A DNA stretch of 55,681 nt from Saprospirales bacterium. Its GTDB lineage: Bacteria; Bacteroidota; Bacteroidia; Chitinophagales; Saprospiraceae. The notes beneath the pieces are model-generated. The model saw only the letters and a program-made list of their open reading frames with translations, was not told the origin of the DNA and made no database searches. Below, piece by piece: positions 3,600 through 13,698 of this stretch. The stretch covers positions 1-55,681 of the forward strand of contig RECS01000088.1 in the NCBI GenBank assembly GCA_007693915.1, in the 5' to 3' direction. Positions within the stretch are counted from its first letter, which is position 1. Every line of letters begins with the position of its first letter. A program made the translations under genes and the position numbers.

Positions 3600-4478
3600 A
3601 TGAATAAATTATTTTTTTTACTCGTCATTGTTATTAGTTTAAGTTCCTGTGCAAGCTCAACTTATTTTCAACTGCATGATCTTGAATCAGAAGATTTGGA
3701 ATTTACTGATGAGGGACTGATATTTAGAAATGAACATTTAATGATTGGCTATAATTTCTGGACTAATGGGGGAAGTGGAGCATTTGTAATAAAAAACAAC
3801 ACAGATTCCATCATATATATAGACCTTGCAAATTCTTATTCGGTACGGAATGGCTTAGCAACTCCCTACTATTTGAACAGGACATTTACAGAATCTTCCA
3901 CACAGACTGTCAGTAGTTATAACTTTTTCACCGATATACATCAATCATCCATCAGCTCCGGTAGCTCCTTTTTAAGTCTGTTTTCAGACGATTACCAAGT
4001 TCAGGGCTTTGTCAATAACCGTGGTAGTCGCAGCAGTCAAACTTCTGTAGGCAGAAGCGGTGAATCATTAACAGCTTCCAAAACATCCGGAATTGAAATC
4101 CGGGAGAGAAGAATAATTTCCATTCCGCCCAATGCTGCAAAGATAGTGAAAGGCAGCCCCTTTCTATCGCGCCCATTTGTTGATTGTGCAATTGAACGGA
4201 ACCCGAATAGAAATCAAGTATCTTCAATTTCATTTGAAAAACAGAATAGTCCCCTTCGCATCACTAATGTTATATCTTATTCATTTCAAGAGTCAGACAT
4301 TGATAATAAGGAGACCCTGGAAATGTCGTACTGGATATCACAAATATCCAATATGTCCTTTAACACCTTTACAGAGCGCAGTGCGGTAAGAGATTGTGAG
4401 AGGAAAGTACGAGGTGTAAGTTACCGAGCAAGGTACGGAGCACCTTATCGGTTTTTTATTCGATATTTTGGACCTTAG
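3600..4478 (+). CDS. Hypothetical lipoprotein
   Basis: The N-terminus is a lipoprotein signal peptide: a hydrophobic stretch LFFLLVIVISLSSC with the lipobox cysteine at about residue 17. The remaining 275 residues are probably periplasmic or outer-membrane anchored, with serine-rich segments near 110-160 and mixed beta-strand character. I do not recognise the family. The gene is monocistronic: upstream is a minus-strand region and downstream nearly 470 bases without a gene. No catalytic motif is visible. The secretion prediction is firm, the function unknown. Confidence 0.7.
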   Translation: MNKLFFLLVIVISLSSCASSTYFQLHDLESEDLEFTDEGLIFRNEHLMIGYNFWTNGGSGAFVIKNNTDSIIYIDLANSYSVRNGLATPYYLNRTFTESSTQTVSSYNFFTDIHQSSISSGSSFLSLFSDDYQVQGFVNNRGSRSSQTSVGRSGESLTASKTSGIEIRERRIISIPPNAAKIVKGSPFLSRPFVDCAIERNPNRNQVSSISFEKQNSPLRITNVISYSFQESDIDNKETLEMSYWISQISNMSFNTFTERSAVRDCERKVRGVSYRARYGAPYRFFIRYFGP

Positions 4479-8227: not shown

Positions 8228-9196
8228 ATGGCAAGAAACATCTTTTTCATATTCATTGGATTTTTACTTTTAAGCTCATGTGTTTCACAAAAAAAATACG
8301 ATGAACTTCTTTCGGCCAACAAAAGGCTTGAAAACAGGATAGACAGACTGGAAGAAGTTCGTAAATCTTATGATCAATTGGTCGGGGAACACAATCAGCT
8401 TAATCGTGAGAGAGAATCTTTAATGAAAGAAAAAACGGGGTTGGAACAGCAAATAACCGGTCTGAGAAAAGCAAACAATGATTTACAAGCCGAATATGAT
8501 GAAATACTGAATCAAAACCGGAATATACTTGCCTCAGCCACTGAAGATAGGCAAACTCTTATTGAGGAACTGGGTAAAAAAGAAAATGAAATCGCTCAGA
8601 CAGAGAGAAGGTTAAACAGATTGGAGTCTGAACTCAATGAAAAAGAGAACAGGCTTAATGATTTACAAAACTCTCTGGAAGAAAGGGAGCATAGGATCAA
8701 TGAATTAACCAGCCAGATTAATGCACAACAAAATGCTCTTAATGATTTAATGACCGGCTTGAACAATGCACTGCTCGGTTTCTCTGATGCTGAATTGAGC
8801 GTCTCTAAGAAAAATGGTCGCGTTTATGTATCACTAAGTCAGGAATTGCTTTTTGCTGTTGGAAGTGATGTAATTGATGCAAAAGGAAGGGAAGCAATTA
8901 TAACACTTGCTGAGGTGCTTAAACAAAATCCAGATGTTGCCATTACAGTTGAAGGACATACAGATTCAGACGGAAGTGCTGATCGGAACTGGGACCTAAG
9001 TGTGAGTAGGGCTACTTCCGTAGTAAAAATACTAACTCGCTCCGGTGTTGATCCAAAGAGAATAACTGCATCGGGGAGAGCTCTTTTTGATCCCGTCGCA
9101 CCAAATGATACACCTGAAAATAAAGCTTTAAACAGACGTACGGAAATTATTTTATCCCCTGATCTAGAAAAGTTATTTCAGTTGATAAGTAATTGA
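8228..9196 (+). CDS. OmpA-family outer-membrane lipoprotein
   Basis: A lipoprotein signal ending in LLLSSC (Cys about 18) is followed by a long coiled coil (about 25-180) rich in Glu, Arg, Asn and Leu heptads. The C-terminal OmpA-like domain (about 205-315) carries the peptidoglycan-binding pattern VEGHTDSDGSADRNWDLSVSRA and the closing NRRTEI. Such proteins tether the outer membrane to peptidoglycan, and the coiled coil probably spans part of the periplasm. The gene has its own promoter and converges on the next gene with an 18-nt gap. Confidence 0.9.
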   Translation: MARNIFFIFIGFLLLSSCVSQKKYDELLSANKRLENRIDRLEEVRKSYDQLVGEHNQLNRERESLMKEKTGLEQQITGLRKANNDLQAEYDEILNQNRNILASATEDRQTLIEELGKKENEIAQTERRLNRLESELNEKENRLNDLQNSLEEREHRINELTSQINAQQNALNDLMTGLNNALLGFSDAELSVSKKNGRVYVSLSQELLFAVGSDVIDAKGREAIITLAEVLKQNPDVAITVEGHTDSDGSADRNWDLSVSRATSVVKILTRSGVDPKRITASGRALFDPVAPNDTPENKALNRRTEIILSPDLEKLFQLISN

Positions 9197-9214: not shown

Positions 9215-10726
9215 TTAGTTCTTTAAGTTTTTTTCTAACATTTCAAGAACCATTTGCCAGAGATCCTCATAAGGTATAATCTCAACGTCAGCAGAACTGT
9301 TGCTAAATTCAGGTGTCATAGATGATAGTGTATTTAAATCCTTTTTGGTGTGCGCAATAACTCTAACCGGATGAAACGAAAGTTTGCCTACTTTAGTCAT
9401 CATTTTTATTATGCAATTGGCCCTAAAAGTATTTGCCTCTCCCAAATGCCGCCTTCGGTATTGCTGTAATGCCTCCAACCTGTCAATATATTTCCCATAT
9501 TCATTTCTGCCTAGAAAAAACATTAATTGAACCAAAAGAACAGCAACTTTTCTTCCTTGCTTTTCTTTTTGATAAACGGGAACATCATTAATGAATTTTT
9601 GAACTCTGAAAATTGATTTTTTGTCTTCTGTCTCAATTTTCCCAAACACTTTCAATAGTTCTACATATGCTTGTATAGTCAACCAGTATTCTTTTAATAT
9701 TGGGGATAGATACTTAGCATTATCTTTACTAATGGTTTCATCCAAAATTTTCGTTGCACCTTTGTAGTCTTTTAAATGCAGTAAAAACAAACACTTATAA
9801 TAAGTAGCTATATACCAATTTTGAGTATATGGTTTAGTGTGGTTCTTTGCTTCTTCAGCAATATTTATAGCTTTAGTTAGCTCCCCTAAATTGAAGTGAC
9901 TATTCATTTTCTTTACGTTCAATGAATAAATTAAAGTCCTGTTCTTAAAAGACTTTTGATCCACCAAATAAAGAACATCGTCAGCAAGTTGAATTATTCC
10001 ATGATAATTTTTGATATCGCTATAATATGAAGACTTGACATTTGAATAATACAATAGGAATCGCGTCGTAGCAATATCAGGAAAAAGTCCATCCAACTTT
10101 CCCATAACTTCAAAAAAGTCCTTGTAATCAGATTTTTTATCTTTCCTAGAATCAATTTTAATAAAAGAAATAAGGCTTAAGGCTTGCGCTGCTCGATGTT
10201 CTGCATCTAAATTTTTTTTAGCATCTTCATTAAAAGACTTGTAATAATTAAATTTTTTTCGATCCAACTCAAGTAAACCATAATGATTCATAAGATCAGA
10301 ACTAATCAGATAATTGAGTTCAGTAAATTCATATTTCATGGTTTGCTCAAACAAATGTTCAGCTAACCATATTGCGGAATTACGAGCGTATTTACTCAAC
10401 AATAACTTAACTAAAGCATATTCTTGATGACAATTGGCCATTGCCGTCCCATAATCAGCAAACCTCGCAGTATTAACGTCTATAAAAAAAAGGGTATTTA
10501 AAAGCCGTTCACGTAATCTTTGTTTCAATTTCAAATAGGCTGCAGACTTAGGTACGTCATTGTATAATAATTTAGACGCATCAGTATCAGAAGCAACTTC
10601 ATTATCTAAAATCGCATAATACAAAGCACCTAATTTTGTATCACTATCTAAATCCTGTCCTATCAATTGAATCTTCTTAATCTTAGAAGGAGGTAATAAA
10701 CCAATTAATTCTTTTAAAATTTTCAT
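9215..10726 (-). CDS. Hypothetical alpha-helical (TPR-like) protein
   Basis: About 503 residues from ATG 10726 (MKILKELIGLLPPSKIKK). A longer frame from GTG 10786 would add 20 hydrophobic residues that look like AT-rich chance coding. The body is nearly all helical, with paired amphipathic helices between about 90 and 430 (for example INIAEEAKNHTKPYTQNWYIATYYKCLFLLHL split over two helices), as in TPR-type scaffolds. There is no signal peptide from the shorter start and no catalytic motif. I recognise a type of protein common in Bacteroidota but have no function for it. It stands alone next to a large gene-poor region. Confidence 0.6.
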   Translation of the reverse strand: MKILKELIGLLPPSKIKKIQLIGQDLDSDTKLGALYYAILDNEVASDTDASKLLYNDVPKSAAYLKLKQRLRERLLNTLFFIDVNTARFADYGTAMANCHQEYALVKLLLSKYARNSAIWLAEHLFEQTMKYEFTELNYLISSDLMNHYGLLELDRKKFNYYKSFNEDAKKNLDAEHRAAQALSLISFIKIDSRKDKKSDYKDFFEVMGKLDGLFPDIATTRFLLYYSNVKSSYYSDIKNYHGIIQLADDVLYLVDQKSFKNRTLIYSLNVKKMNSHFNLGELTKAINIAEEAKNHTKPYTQNWYIATYYKCLFLLHLKDYKGATKILDETISKDNAKYLSPILKEYWLTIQAYVELLKVFGKIETEDKKSIFRVQKFINDVPVYQKEKQGRKVAVLLVQLMFFLGRNEYGKYIDRLEALQQYRRRHLGEANTFRANCIIKMMTKVGKLSFHPVRVIAHTKKDLNTLSSMTPEFSNSSADVEIIPYEDLWQMVLEMLEKNLKN

Positions 10727-10974
10727 AAATAAACTTAGTAAACTGATAATCAATAAAAAAAAAAGTAAATTAGTTAGAAAAACCACTAAAATGGTAGTCC
10801 ATAATTTCAGTTTTTAGTTTAAAGTTACAAAAAAGATACAATCTATATTTGCATTTGTAAAGACATATAGAACACATTTTACTATAAACAAGGTGCTGTA
10901 ATACAGTGCTTAATAAAAATTTTAATCGGATGTTAATAAAATATTGACAGTCCTAAGTTTGAGGTATTTGTTTT

Positions 10975-11003
10975 TTTGGTATTTGGGGTTAGATTTACTT
11001 TTG
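10975..11003 (+). promoter_or_regulatory. Strong Bacteroidota promoter ahead of a 21-codon ORF
   Basis: TTTG at 10975-10978, a 17-nt spacer and TACTTTTG at 10996-11003 match both consensus elements. The transcript would start near 11008 and reach an ATG at 11046 through an A-rich leader, as is usual in the phylum. Confidence 0.6.
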
Positions 11004-11045: not shown

Positions 11046-11111
11046 ATGGATTTAATTACCGAAATACTCATACTGTTAGGATTGATTAACGAAGACTTGG
11101 ATGGTATCTAG
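11046..11111 (+). CDS. Putative 21-residue hydrophobic microprotein
   Basis: ATG to TAG encodes 21 residues: an acidic start (MDLITE), a hydrophobic core (ILILLGLI) and an acidic tail (NEDLDGI). Support is indirect: a near-consensus promoter at the right distance, an A-rich leader directly before the ATG, and a convergent small-RNA gene 17 nt beyond the stop. It could be a small membrane-active peptide, a leader peptide or chance. Only expression data would settle it. Confidence 0.35.
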   Translation: MDLITEILILLGLINEDLDGI

Positions 11112-11127
11112 ATAGGATACAAAAATA

Positions 11128-11199
11128 AAAAAAATAAGGGTTCGTACCACTCTTGGTACAAACCCTTACTAAAACCCTAATTTATAAAATTCCGTTGTA
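11128..11199 (-). ncRNA. Putative small RNA, copy 1
   Basis: On the minus strand a -7 box TATTTTTG (11203-11210) is followed, after 3 nt, by 32 bases identical to copy 2, then a 13-bp hairpin with one mismatch (arms 11155-11167 and 11136-11148, loop 11149-11154) and A plus eight T, the layout of an intrinsic terminator. Hairpin arms differ from copy 2 but keep pairing in the outer and inner stem. Sequence identity begins where the transcript should start. No ATG lies inside. The -33 element is poor; instead a dyad GGACAAG-N7-CTTGTCC (11212-11232) covers the promoter spacer and could be an operator. Confidence 0.55.
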
Positions 11200-11202
11200 C
11201 CG

Positions 11203-11210
11203 CAAAAATA
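11203..11210 (-). promoter_or_regulatory. -7 box of putative small RNA copy 1
   Basis: The minus strand reads TATTTTTG (TAnnTTTG). No TTG lies 17-21 nt upstream. The perfect 7-bp dyad at 11212-11218/11226-11232 fills the region between -7 and -33. Confidence 0.5.
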
Positions 11211-11211
11211 C

Positions 11212-11232
11212 GGACAAGTATCTTTCTTGTCC
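11212..11232. promoter_or_regulatory. Dyad GGACAAG-N7-CTTGTCC next to the small RNA promoter
   Basis: Perfect 7-bp arms. It could be an operator for the minus-strand promoter. Read on the plus strand, with the T-rich sequence after it, it could instead be a terminator for the micro-ORF transcript. Confidence 0.4.
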
Positions 11233-12100
11233 TAATATTTTGTTGTATTTTTTGATATTTTTTTTATTTTAATTTTTAGTATATTGATTATCAATCTCCT
11301 ACAACGTATCCTTTAGATTTAGTTGAGCAACTATTACCTTTACTCGTATATTCAACATATTTATTGAATCAATAAGCCGATTCAATCCAGTATTTATATA
11401 GCCTACGAAATAATACTGGAATTTGATTTAACATAATTTACTTCACTATCCTAGCTTAAAGAAAAATTTTAGGATTATTTCTTTGATTGGAAATTTCCAT
11501 TGAAAAGTTTTCCATCAGTGTAGACTGATAATTTTTTCTTGATGCTTCTCATAGGAATTACCAAGGTCACTCTCTTAAATCATTCAAGGCATAAAACCTC
11601 AGGCAAAAGATAAACAAAATTCTATTGTTTATACTTTAAGTTTGTGTTCAGAAATAATTTAAAAAAATAAGCTATGAAATAAAACAGTGTGTAAAAATTG
11701 GAATCGAAATGAATCTGACAACCAATTGAAAATCTTTAAAAGAAAGACCTATATCAGTTTTTTTTTTAGAGTGATGAAGTCTACGATAATTTTACAAACC
11801 ATAGGTCTTTTGCAAAGAGTGATGTGTTTTGATTTACCTTCTTTGAAAGTCCGAAGGCCAAGCTGGCTGGGTCTCGTCCAAAAGACGAGATAGGGTTTCA
11901 GAAAACTTGCTGGATGTCGAAATCGTCAAAATAAAGTTTATAGAACTAGCAAAACATGTATCAACAAAATTTTATATCATATCCATTATGAATTAACCCT
12001 TTTATTTGCTCTTATCTCGTAAAACTAGTCTATAAAGTATTGTTTGTTAAATTAGAAATTACATCAAACCTTTAAGGTATAAATCAAAACAATTACCTTA
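11233..12100. other. Gene-poor AT-rich stretch with several dyads
   Basis: No ORF here is convincing. Perfect inverted repeats are ATTGAATC-N8-GATTCAAT (11363-11386), AAAGACCTAT (11743-11752) with ATAGGTCTTT (11801-11810), TCTCGTC-CAAAA-GACGAGA near 11872-11890, and TAAGGTA (12073-12079) with TACCTTA (12094-12100). A nonamer AGAGTGATG occurs twice (11768, 11816). This density of paired arms suggests further RNA structures or decayed mobile DNA. Confidence 0.4.
11514..11537 (+). terminator. Intrinsic terminator-like hairpin
   Basis: ATCAGT-GTAG-ACTGAT followed by AATTTTTT. The stem is only 6 bp. No gene upstream is identified, so it may end an unrecognised transcript. Confidence 0.4.
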
Positions 12101-12101
12101 T

Positions 12102-12173
12102 AAAAAAATAAGGGTTCTAACCCTGGCAGGTTCGAACCCTTACTAAAACCCTAATTTATAAAATTCCGTTGTA
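12102..12173 (-). ncRNA. Putative small RNA, copy 2
   Basis: Same plan as the copy 900 bases away: -7 box TATATTTG (12177-12184), then the conserved 32 bases beginning TACAACGG (12173 down to 12142), a 13-bp hairpin with one mismatch (12129-12141 with 12110-12122, loop 12123-12128), then A and seven T. The inner stem sequence differs from copy 1, with paired changes on both arms. A TTG at 12205-12207 (minus strand), 20 nt from the -7 box, completes a canonical promoter, so this copy looks the better expressed. The next gene downstream on this strand is about 1.4 kb away, so it is not an obvious leader. Confidence 0.6.
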
Positions 12174-12176
12174 ATG

Positions 12177-12207
12177 CAAATATATAAACAATTCCATTAA
12201 TTGGCAA
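12177..12207 (-). promoter_or_regulatory. Promoter of putative small RNA copy 2
   Basis: Minus-strand TTG (12207-12205), 20-nt spacer, TATATTTG (12184-12177): both Bacteroidota elements at normal spacing. Confidence 0.6.
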
Positions 12208-12423: not shown

Positions 12424-13698
12424 ATGAGGTTTTTAATACAAGGTATTTTTTTATTTTTTTTTATTAGCTATCAAAGCTTAGCCCAAGAGCTTCGATATTT
12501 AAATCATAGATGTCAAGCTGAAGACTTTCTTTTGGAATCCATTGAAGCCAATCCAAGAAATTTAAACATTTTTCACATACAGGAAAAAGCCATACGAGAC
12601 TTTTTGGCGAACAAAAATTTTAGCATCCAAAGGTCGGAGATTATTATTCCAGTTGTTATCCATATCGTTTATCGAACTGATGAACAAAACATTAGTGACC
12701 TTCAGGTTCTTGATCAGTTAGATATCCTCAATCGCGCTTTTTCAAAGGAAAATAAAAATCTATACACTGTTCCTCCTCAATTCCGGACCTTAATAAGTAA
12801 TGTCGGTATTCAGTTTTGTCTTGCACGCCTGGATCCTGATGGCAAACCAACAAACGGAATCATTCGAAAACCAACCTCTGTTGAAAATATAGGTACGAAA
12901 AGGGCTGATGGAATTAAAGTAGCTGTTCACTTTGATGAATACGGTGGTTCAAATTCCTGGGATACTGAAAGATATCTAAACATCTGGGTAGCTGAAATGG
13001 AAAGTAACATAGCAGGAAGTGCAACCTTCCCGAATATGGCACCCTATCCGGAGGCTGATGGAATCATCATGAATTACAGGTACTTTGGTAGTATCGGTAC
13101 CGCTATACAAAGCACGCCCTATGACAAGGGAAAAACCCTGATTCATGAAGTAGGACACTACTTTAATCTTTTCCATCCCTGGGGTCCCGGATTTGGAGGA
13201 TGCGAAACAGATGACTTTGTCGATGACACACCCTTGCAGGAAGGACCATATTTTGATTGTAATCCATTAGATAATTTCTCATGTGGCTCCGAGGATATCG
13301 TTGTGAACTTTATGGACTATACTGAAGATGCTTGTCTCGCCATGTTCACTAATGGACAAAAAGAAAGAATGTTAGCTAGCATACAGTTATTTCGATCAAA
13401 TTTAATTAATAACCAATCTGCATGCCATAATAGTGAGGATACAACAACCAATAACTCTAAAGATTTTTTGATTGTCAAACCAGAGCGTATTGATCAAATT
13501 TTTATCTATTCGCCTGAGAAGAAGGTACTGGACTTTACTGTGGAAATATATACTATTGGCGGAAAAGAGGTATGGAGAGAGCAACTCAGCCAAACCTCTT
13601 TTCATACCATTAATGTTTCAACCCTATCAAGAGGAGTTTATATTGTTTGTATAACTACCTCTGAATATTTCAACTGTTCTAAAATACCTGTTTTCTAA
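12424..13698 (+). CDS. Secreted M43-family (cytophagalysin-like) zinc metalloprotease
   Basis: A signal peptide (about residues 1-20, ending SLAQ) precedes a metzincin domain. The zinc site HEVGHYFNLFH sits near residue 240 and matches HExxHxxGxxH with Phe-Asn in place of the usual residues before the third His. The Met-turn follows as VNFMDYTEDACLAMF near 297-311. The last 75 residues are beta-rich and end in a pattern like the type A T9SS sorting domain (VEIYTIGGKEVW, then LSRGVYIV), though weaker than usual. The protein is probably exported and surface-bound or released. The gene has its own transcription unit and converges on the next gene with a 7-nt gap. Confidence 0.85.
   Translation: MRFLIQGIFLFFFISYQSLAQELRYLNHRCQAEDFLLESIEANPRNLNIFHIQEKAIRDFLANKNFSIQRSEIIIPVVIHIVYRTDEQNISDLQVLDQLDILNRAFSKENKNLYTVPPQFRTLISNVGIQFCLARLDPDGKPTNGIIRKPTSVENIGTKRADGIKVAVHFDEYGGSNSWDTERYLNIWVAEMESNIAGSATFPNMAPYPEADGIIMNYRYFGSIGTAIQSTPYDKGKTLIHEVGHYFNLFHPWGPGFGGCETDDFVDDTPLQEGPYFDCNPLDNFSCGSEDIVVNFMDYTEDACLAMFTNGQKERMLASIQLFRSNLINNQSACHNSEDTTTNNSKDFLIVKPERIDQIFIYSPEKKVLDFTVEIYTIGGKEVWREQLSQTSFHTINVSTLSRGVYIVCITTSEYFNCSKIPVF

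Follow-up and report, generated by a model that had tools for sequence, protein, structure and literature searches.

The closest described counterparts of the elements reported here are the FopS small RNAs of Bacteroides thetaiotaomicron, which are 65–70 nt long and consist of a single-stranded seed followed by a terminator. The FopS/GibS group comprises fourteen paralogs with a canonical Bacteroidota promoter, a conserved 5′ seed and a divergent 3′ part; FopS is bound by the RRM protein RbpB and pairs with susC-like mRNAs (PMC11697453). A second type of system, the RRNPP pairs of the Firmicutes, combines a peptide with a TPR receptor, and is characterized by a secreted propeptide, a basic N-terminus and an HTH domain (PMC10075063). 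Regulatory RNAs appear to be little described in the Saprospiraceae: there is no Rfam match at the locus, and our literature searches found no paper on a small RNA (sRNA) of this family. To judge by sequence and conservation, the two segments described below look like members of a new, genus-restricted family of short regulatory RNAs.

The window, the whole stretch of 55,681 nucleotides that was analyzed, belongs to an uncultured Saprospiraceae-type genome of 3.43 Mb (G000), whose named relatives are metagenome-assembled genomes (MAGs) of Saprospirales and Saprospiraceae. Two units on its minus strand share the same layout, a TAnnTTTG box, 3 nt, TACAACGGAATTTTATAAATTAGGGTTTTAG, a hairpin and a run of seven to eight T. 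Copy 1 (11127–11199) begins with the 5′ core ACAACGGAATTTTATAAATTAGGGTTTTAG, followed by the terminator hairpin and 8 T (11127–11134); copy 2 (12102–12173) has the same core, a hairpin at 12109–12142 and 7 T (12102–12108). The −7 box is TATTTTTG in copy 1 (11203–11210, a column block conserved in seven homologs) and TATATTTG in copy 2 (12177–12184), in each case exactly 3 nt before the conserved block TACAACGG. Copy 2 also has a −33-like TTG (12205–12207) at 20-nt spacing upstream of its box. These features had been noted in a preliminary description of the locus, as had a block of 32 identical bases, which we find to be 32 of 33 over positions 11168–11200 at an offset of 974; a BLAST comparison of the two copies gives E = 4.9e-20. 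At this offset the flanks agree far less: 24% of the bases match over the 100 nt past the T-run, 47–55% over 90 AT-rich nt upstream of the box, and 32% farther out. Since identity drops on both sides, the unit extends from the promoter box to the T-run, in line with the earlier proposal that the limits of identity coincide with a predicted promoter and terminator.

TAnnTTTG agrees with the known Bacteroidota promoter consensus. It is kept across the aligned copies while its two free positions vary; on this agreement and conservation the boxes are read as predicted promoters. A dyad, GGACAAG-N7-CTTGTCC, lies directly upstream of the copy 1 box (11211–11232, minus strand; shuffle p about 0.001) and is a possible operator. 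Other dyads (GGATAT..ATATCC) occupy the same place in G002, G003 and partly G005, with a p of about 0.01 from genomes that are not independent; none is significant in the spacers of the remaining copies. A conserved spacer operator was thus rejected, significance being confined to window copy 1 and the related G002, G003 and G005.

Neither copy contains an ATG, as the preliminary description had stated. A tiny coding ORF inside the sRNA was rejected on this ground and on the loss, in the window copies, of the TTG frame seen in the core of G002–G004. Both copies fold more stably than their shuffled counterparts, with z-scores of −5.8 (copy 1, −27.3 kcal/mol) and −3.6 (copy 2). Neither BLAST over the element nor a covariance model detects further full copies in the G000 genome. 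In other genomes BLAST finds one more copy, in the congener G001. A first covariance model of these three copies (two from the window and that of G001) recovers diverged copies in G002, G003, G004 and G005, and the model rebuilt from seven copies adds a second copy in G004 (E 1e-9, from a shortened calibration, as are the other E-values of these models). It scores copy 1 at 95.9 bits and copy 2 at 93 bits. The family thus totals eight copies in six genomes of the same genus (G000–G005), with two per genome at most; two other congeners, G006 (85% complete) and G007 (74%), have no covariance-model match, the MAGs being of unequal completeness.

Conservation within the family is concentrated in the parts expected of a transcription unit. 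Pairwise column identity reaches 0.84 for the −7 box, 0.86 for the 5′ core and 0.80 for the T-run; it is 0.48 for the −33/spacer region and 0.27 downstream, and the most conserved part is the core of about 28 nt. Common to the aligned copies are the TAnnTTTG box, ACAACGGAA, GGGTTTT and a terminator. Six genomes thus conserve box, core and terminator but not the flanks. This agrees with the earlier reading of the segments as non-coding RNAs of about 72 nt that start at a promoter of the Bacteroidota type and end at an intrinsic terminator; we consider it highly probable that they form a real family of sRNA genes. A suggested relation to Flavo-1, likewise a non-coding RNA of Bacteroidota, was not borne out: the Rfam covariance models, Flavo-1 included, give nothing at the gathering cut-off in the window and, over the locus at E up to 10, only chance-level matches. 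On the sister loci the only Rfam match is a group II intron. A cmscan search against Rfam 15 gave no FopS match either, the FopS model, which is reported as deposited in Rfam, being unconfirmed in the copy used.

Covariance matches outside the genus were mostly terminators without the TAnnTTTG box and core, and were rejected; these family-wide scans used stricter filters, with which weak matches are lost. The best look-alike lies behind ftsZ in G058 (L112, 1370–1446, minus strand) and reads TACATTTG-ATTTAT-ACAACAGAATTGTATAATATTAAGGGTG followed by a terminator. Its box and core-like sequence have no ortholog within its own genus, and the element is a candidate, unproven relative. No match to the element was found in plasmids, in phages or in one pattern scan of viral contigs.

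The terminator hairpin of copy 1 spans 11135–11168 (minus strand). The preliminary description had assigned to both copies a hairpin of 13 bp whose inner bases differ and remain paired. The arms do differ, and covariation is clear across seven copies, but the stem of copy 1 extends up to 17 bp and that of copy 2 contains one inner G/A mismatch. Between the two copies identity is 85–86% in the outer arms and zero at the six bases around the loop. In the seven-copy alignment 92% of the cells of the stem are paired, and double changes occur at 7 of its 15 pairs. None of 500 shuffles reaches the stem's values for paired cells, double-change cells or covariation. When the partner is slid by one to three columns, the covariation score falls to 0.16 or less, compared with 0.48 for the true pairing; kinship among the copies weakens the shuffle control, not the slid one.

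A group II intron in G001 bears on the function of this hairpin. It lies directly after the T-run (CTTTTT), in the orientation of the sRNA, with GTGTGCC as its apparent 5′ end; it matches Rfam group-II-D1D4-3 at 112.9 bits, and its ORF has domains for reverse transcriptase and maturase but none for an endonuclease. Class C group II introns insert after intrinsic terminators (PMC4424553), and the position of the G001 intron fits, as expected, an insertion of this class; since its class is not formally assigned, the terminator function of the hairpin is supported rather than proven.

The second G004 copy separates the core from the rest of the unit. It lies behind uvrA and has the box TATCTTTG and an unrelated hairpin, and the core AACGGAAATTGGTTATTTTGGGGTTTTTAA is present in both G004 copies. 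The same core joined to a different hairpin indicates selection on the core, not on the locus. Within a genome the core is near-identical (32/33 in G000) yet it differs between clades (ATTTTATAAATTAGGG vs AATTGGTTATTTTGGGG), a pattern that would fit sibling sRNAs with common targets. We infer from these features that the RNA is transcribed and acts in trans by base-pairing; its predicted build, an unpaired 5′ seed and a terminator, and its size are those of FopS. Each copy would start at a primary-sigma (TAnnTTTG) promoter of its own and stop at an intrinsic terminator of its own; the functional part would be the 5′ core (ACAACGGAA...GGGTTTT), and the terminator would serve as an exchangeable 3′ end. 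The core would most likely base-pair in trans with mRNAs near their start codons, as FopS/GibS do in Bacteroides, and the copies would be sibling sRNAs acting on the same targets. Duplex energies of the core against the start regions of 42 window genes give no clear outlier. In the window copies the core may not be fully single-stranded, since RNAfold predicts a weak G-U rich helix there, and the core could bind a protein instead of an mRNA. As a whole, paralogous sRNA genes of about 72 nt with their own promoters and terminators, whose core pairs in trans, are our best explanation, to which we give about even chances.

Copy 1 faces a further gene that an 80-aa ORF cut-off hides, located between it and the next gene. 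This gene (11046–11111, plus strand) encodes a micropeptide of 21 aa, MDLITEILILLGLINEDLDGI, which is short and hydrophobic with an acidic tail; it has its own −7 box, TACTTTTG (10996–11003, plus strand), and in the g1 genomes, the genus of the window, a TAnnTTTG box lies 46–50 nt before the ATG. Orthologs occupy the same position, convergent with the sRNA, in G002–G005 (profile match E 4.5e-8). A profile of the five peptides gives weak matches in other genera, and 12 of the 15 that were fetched adjoin a homolog of the neighbouring gene for a protein of 503 aa; since that gene was not part of the search, the pairing of peptide and TPR protein is independent evidence. The peptide of L190 reaches a position-specific score of 44, and everything else upstream of 39 other TPR homologs (ATG ORFs of 14–32 aa) remains below 1. 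Over 18 peptides pN/pS is 0.48 in frame, compared with 0.95 and 1.72 in the shifted frames.

Homologs are found at L103–L106, L148–L158, L161, L162 and L190 and, in named MAGs, at L203, L204, L211 and L247, where the peptide ATG is 316–333 nt from the TPR gene. Together they define a family of about 21 aa with a core like I-L-x-L-L-G-I-I-x-D-D-x-D-G-L, divergent from a TPR-like gene of about 500 aa, in many Saprospiraceae genera. No Pfam family matches the micropeptide, no other copy occurs in the window or near the second G004 sRNA copy, and no paper describing a micropeptide–TPR pair was found.

Further elements accompany the micropeptide gene. In L148, L152 and L190 a block of about 110 nt, TATAAAGAATCATTAGTTCTTTTTTGGGTGTTATGCAATGACCACCTGCTTCT...AGTAGGTGGTTTTTTTTT, follows the ORF directly on its strand (L152 about 3865–3980); it is near-identical between genera, more conserved than the peptide codons, and has no Rfam match. 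L150 and L155 have two consecutive conserved pieces 3′ of the micropeptide on the same strand, each with GGGTGT and a terminator-like hairpin. In the window a second TATATTTG box (10844–10851, plus strand) lies upstream of the micropeptide, followed by a hairpin with apparent counterparts in sister genomes; this may be a further small transcript or a long leader.

The 503-aa gene (9215–10726, minus strand; longest ORF 9215–10786) is divergent from the micropeptide gene. A profile of its product matches TPR chains of the PDB (E 9e-8), and the AlphaFold2 model is all-helical with a pLDDT of 83.6. A fold search with the protein returns generic TPR proteins, including the AimR receptor, and no match has an E below 0.001. 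In a quick tree of 82 TPR homologs the peptide-bearing ones require six changes, compared with 14 by chance, and lie mostly outside one large clade of 64 that is nearly without the peptide. This suggests an old association that was lost in the 64-member clade, a picture that undetected diverged peptides could alter. Other TPR paralogs have a different conserved companion: at L185, L189 and L195 an acidic ORF of 31 aa (MEDEGEIYESMEDIWPDYPRKDDFLFNEDEY) lies about 390–580 nt upstream of TPR homologs on the same strand.

TPR gene, micropeptide and both sRNAs lie in a 3.2-kb insert between an OmpA-family gene (8228–9196, plus strand) and a gene for an M43 metallopeptidase with a Por secretion tail (12424–13698, plus strand). 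The latter is divergent from sRNA copy 2 and is a neighbour of the sRNA in G001 as well. In G004 and G006 the M43 gene directly follows the OmpA gene; in the window 3.2 kb separate the two. The sRNA, micropeptide and TPR genes of G003 and G004 follow two other genes, which we take from their sequence to be folD-like and prmA-like. It thus seems that the three elements moved as a group, an argument that they form a unit, at least in this genus. Copies away from the micropeptide–TPR module also exist.

Convergent type I toxin–antitoxin pairs such as TxpA/RatA, BsrG/SR4 and Fst/RNA II consist of a gene for a small hydrophobic peptide and, facing it, a short RNA gene. Copy 1 might likewise be mainly a cis-antisense RNA of the micropeptide gene, where a read-through mRNA would pair over the whole sRNA and be less well translated or less stable. 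All five g1 genomes with the micropeptide preserve the convergence, and in them the micropeptide gene has no terminator of its own ahead of the sRNA gene; at eight loci in other genera there is one on the same strand, 22–114 nt past the stop. An mRNA that ran on would be perfectly complementary to the sRNA. The peptide is also of the appropriate kind, short and hydrophobic with its acidic tail, and a convergent TAnnTTTG box and hairpin face the micropeptide in L153 and L157 (genus g121). These boxes and hairpins are of unrelated sequence and perhaps belong to an analogous sRNA. A purely cis role, however, needs neither window copy 2 nor the second G004 copy, which keep the core with no micropeptide nearby; most micropeptide loci of other genera are without such an sRNA; the 5′ regions of sRNA and micropeptide are no more complementary than shuffles (p 0.35–0.91); and the peptide, a putative toxin only, is tied to a TPR protein instead of standing alone. 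We regard a mainly cis-antisense role, the chief rival of the preferred reading, as possible but doubtful. As the copies elsewhere are also complementary to a read-through mRNA, action in cis and in trans are not exclusive.

The element lies on the same strand as the TPR gene and at a similar distance upstream of it (about 340–420 nt) in five genomes, as would a leader or attenuator of that gene that is no independent sRNA. Against this, the micropeptide gene is interposed between the two on the opposite strand and has a conserved promoter box of its own, no conserved alternative pairing undoes the terminator, and window copy 2, the G001 copy and the second G004 copy have no TPR gene directly downstream; a leader is very unlikely. 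The position of the module in the ompA–M43 insert, which means that the module has moved, would also be compatible with a repeat that has no function, in which a mobile element or a chance duplication copied a fragment bearing a terminator. The promoter box, the core and the pairing of the stem are, however, kept in six genomes, the stem by compensatory change, and this covariation nearly refutes the idea; no transposase gene is seen between the ends of the insert, and there is no plasmid or phage match. The larger transposable element without promoter conservation that the preliminary description had named as a counter-case does not describe the locus, where the promoter box is kept in six genomes. 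We hold a non-functional repeat to be hardly credible and retain sRNA paralogs that act in trans as the preferred reading.

Compared with the type I pairs, the locus has the same arrangement of peptide and RNA gene, predicted here from sequence, but the sRNA core is conserved in copies without a peptide gene, and the peptide carries an acidic tail and is paired with a TPR protein. The likeness to the RRNPP pairs is that the gene for a peptide of about 20 aa adjoins one for a TPR protein of about 500 aa, counted here within the 250–500 aa of the receptors. However, the peptides, as judged from sequence, mostly start with M(D/E/N) and show neither a basic N-terminus nor an evident secretion signal, an HTH domain is not detected in the TPR protein, the host is one of the Bacteroidota rather than the Firmicutes, and the model matches unrelated TPR proteins as well as AimR. 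The pairing could be a peptide–receptor or a peptide–toxin module, systems that are scarcely described in Bacteroidota. It is conceivable, though we think it unlikely, that sRNA, micropeptide and TPR protein form one regulatory module, the first such in Bacteroidota, in which a leaderless peptide of about 21 aa would occupy the TPR groove, its level would be set in one genus by the convergent antisense sRNA, and the spare copies would be antidotes acting in trans on the same mRNA.

With FopS the window family shares size, promoter type, a conserved 5′ seed, the terminator end and its presence in several copies, though the window cores contain the weak G-U rich helix. It differs in occurring in the Saprospiraceae, in having at most two copies per genome compared with fourteen, and in that one copy is tied to a micropeptide–TPR module. 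The Saprospiraceae thereby gain a defined sRNA family with predicted ends, orthologs and paralogs, whose nearest likeness is to the FopS RNAs of Bacteroides.
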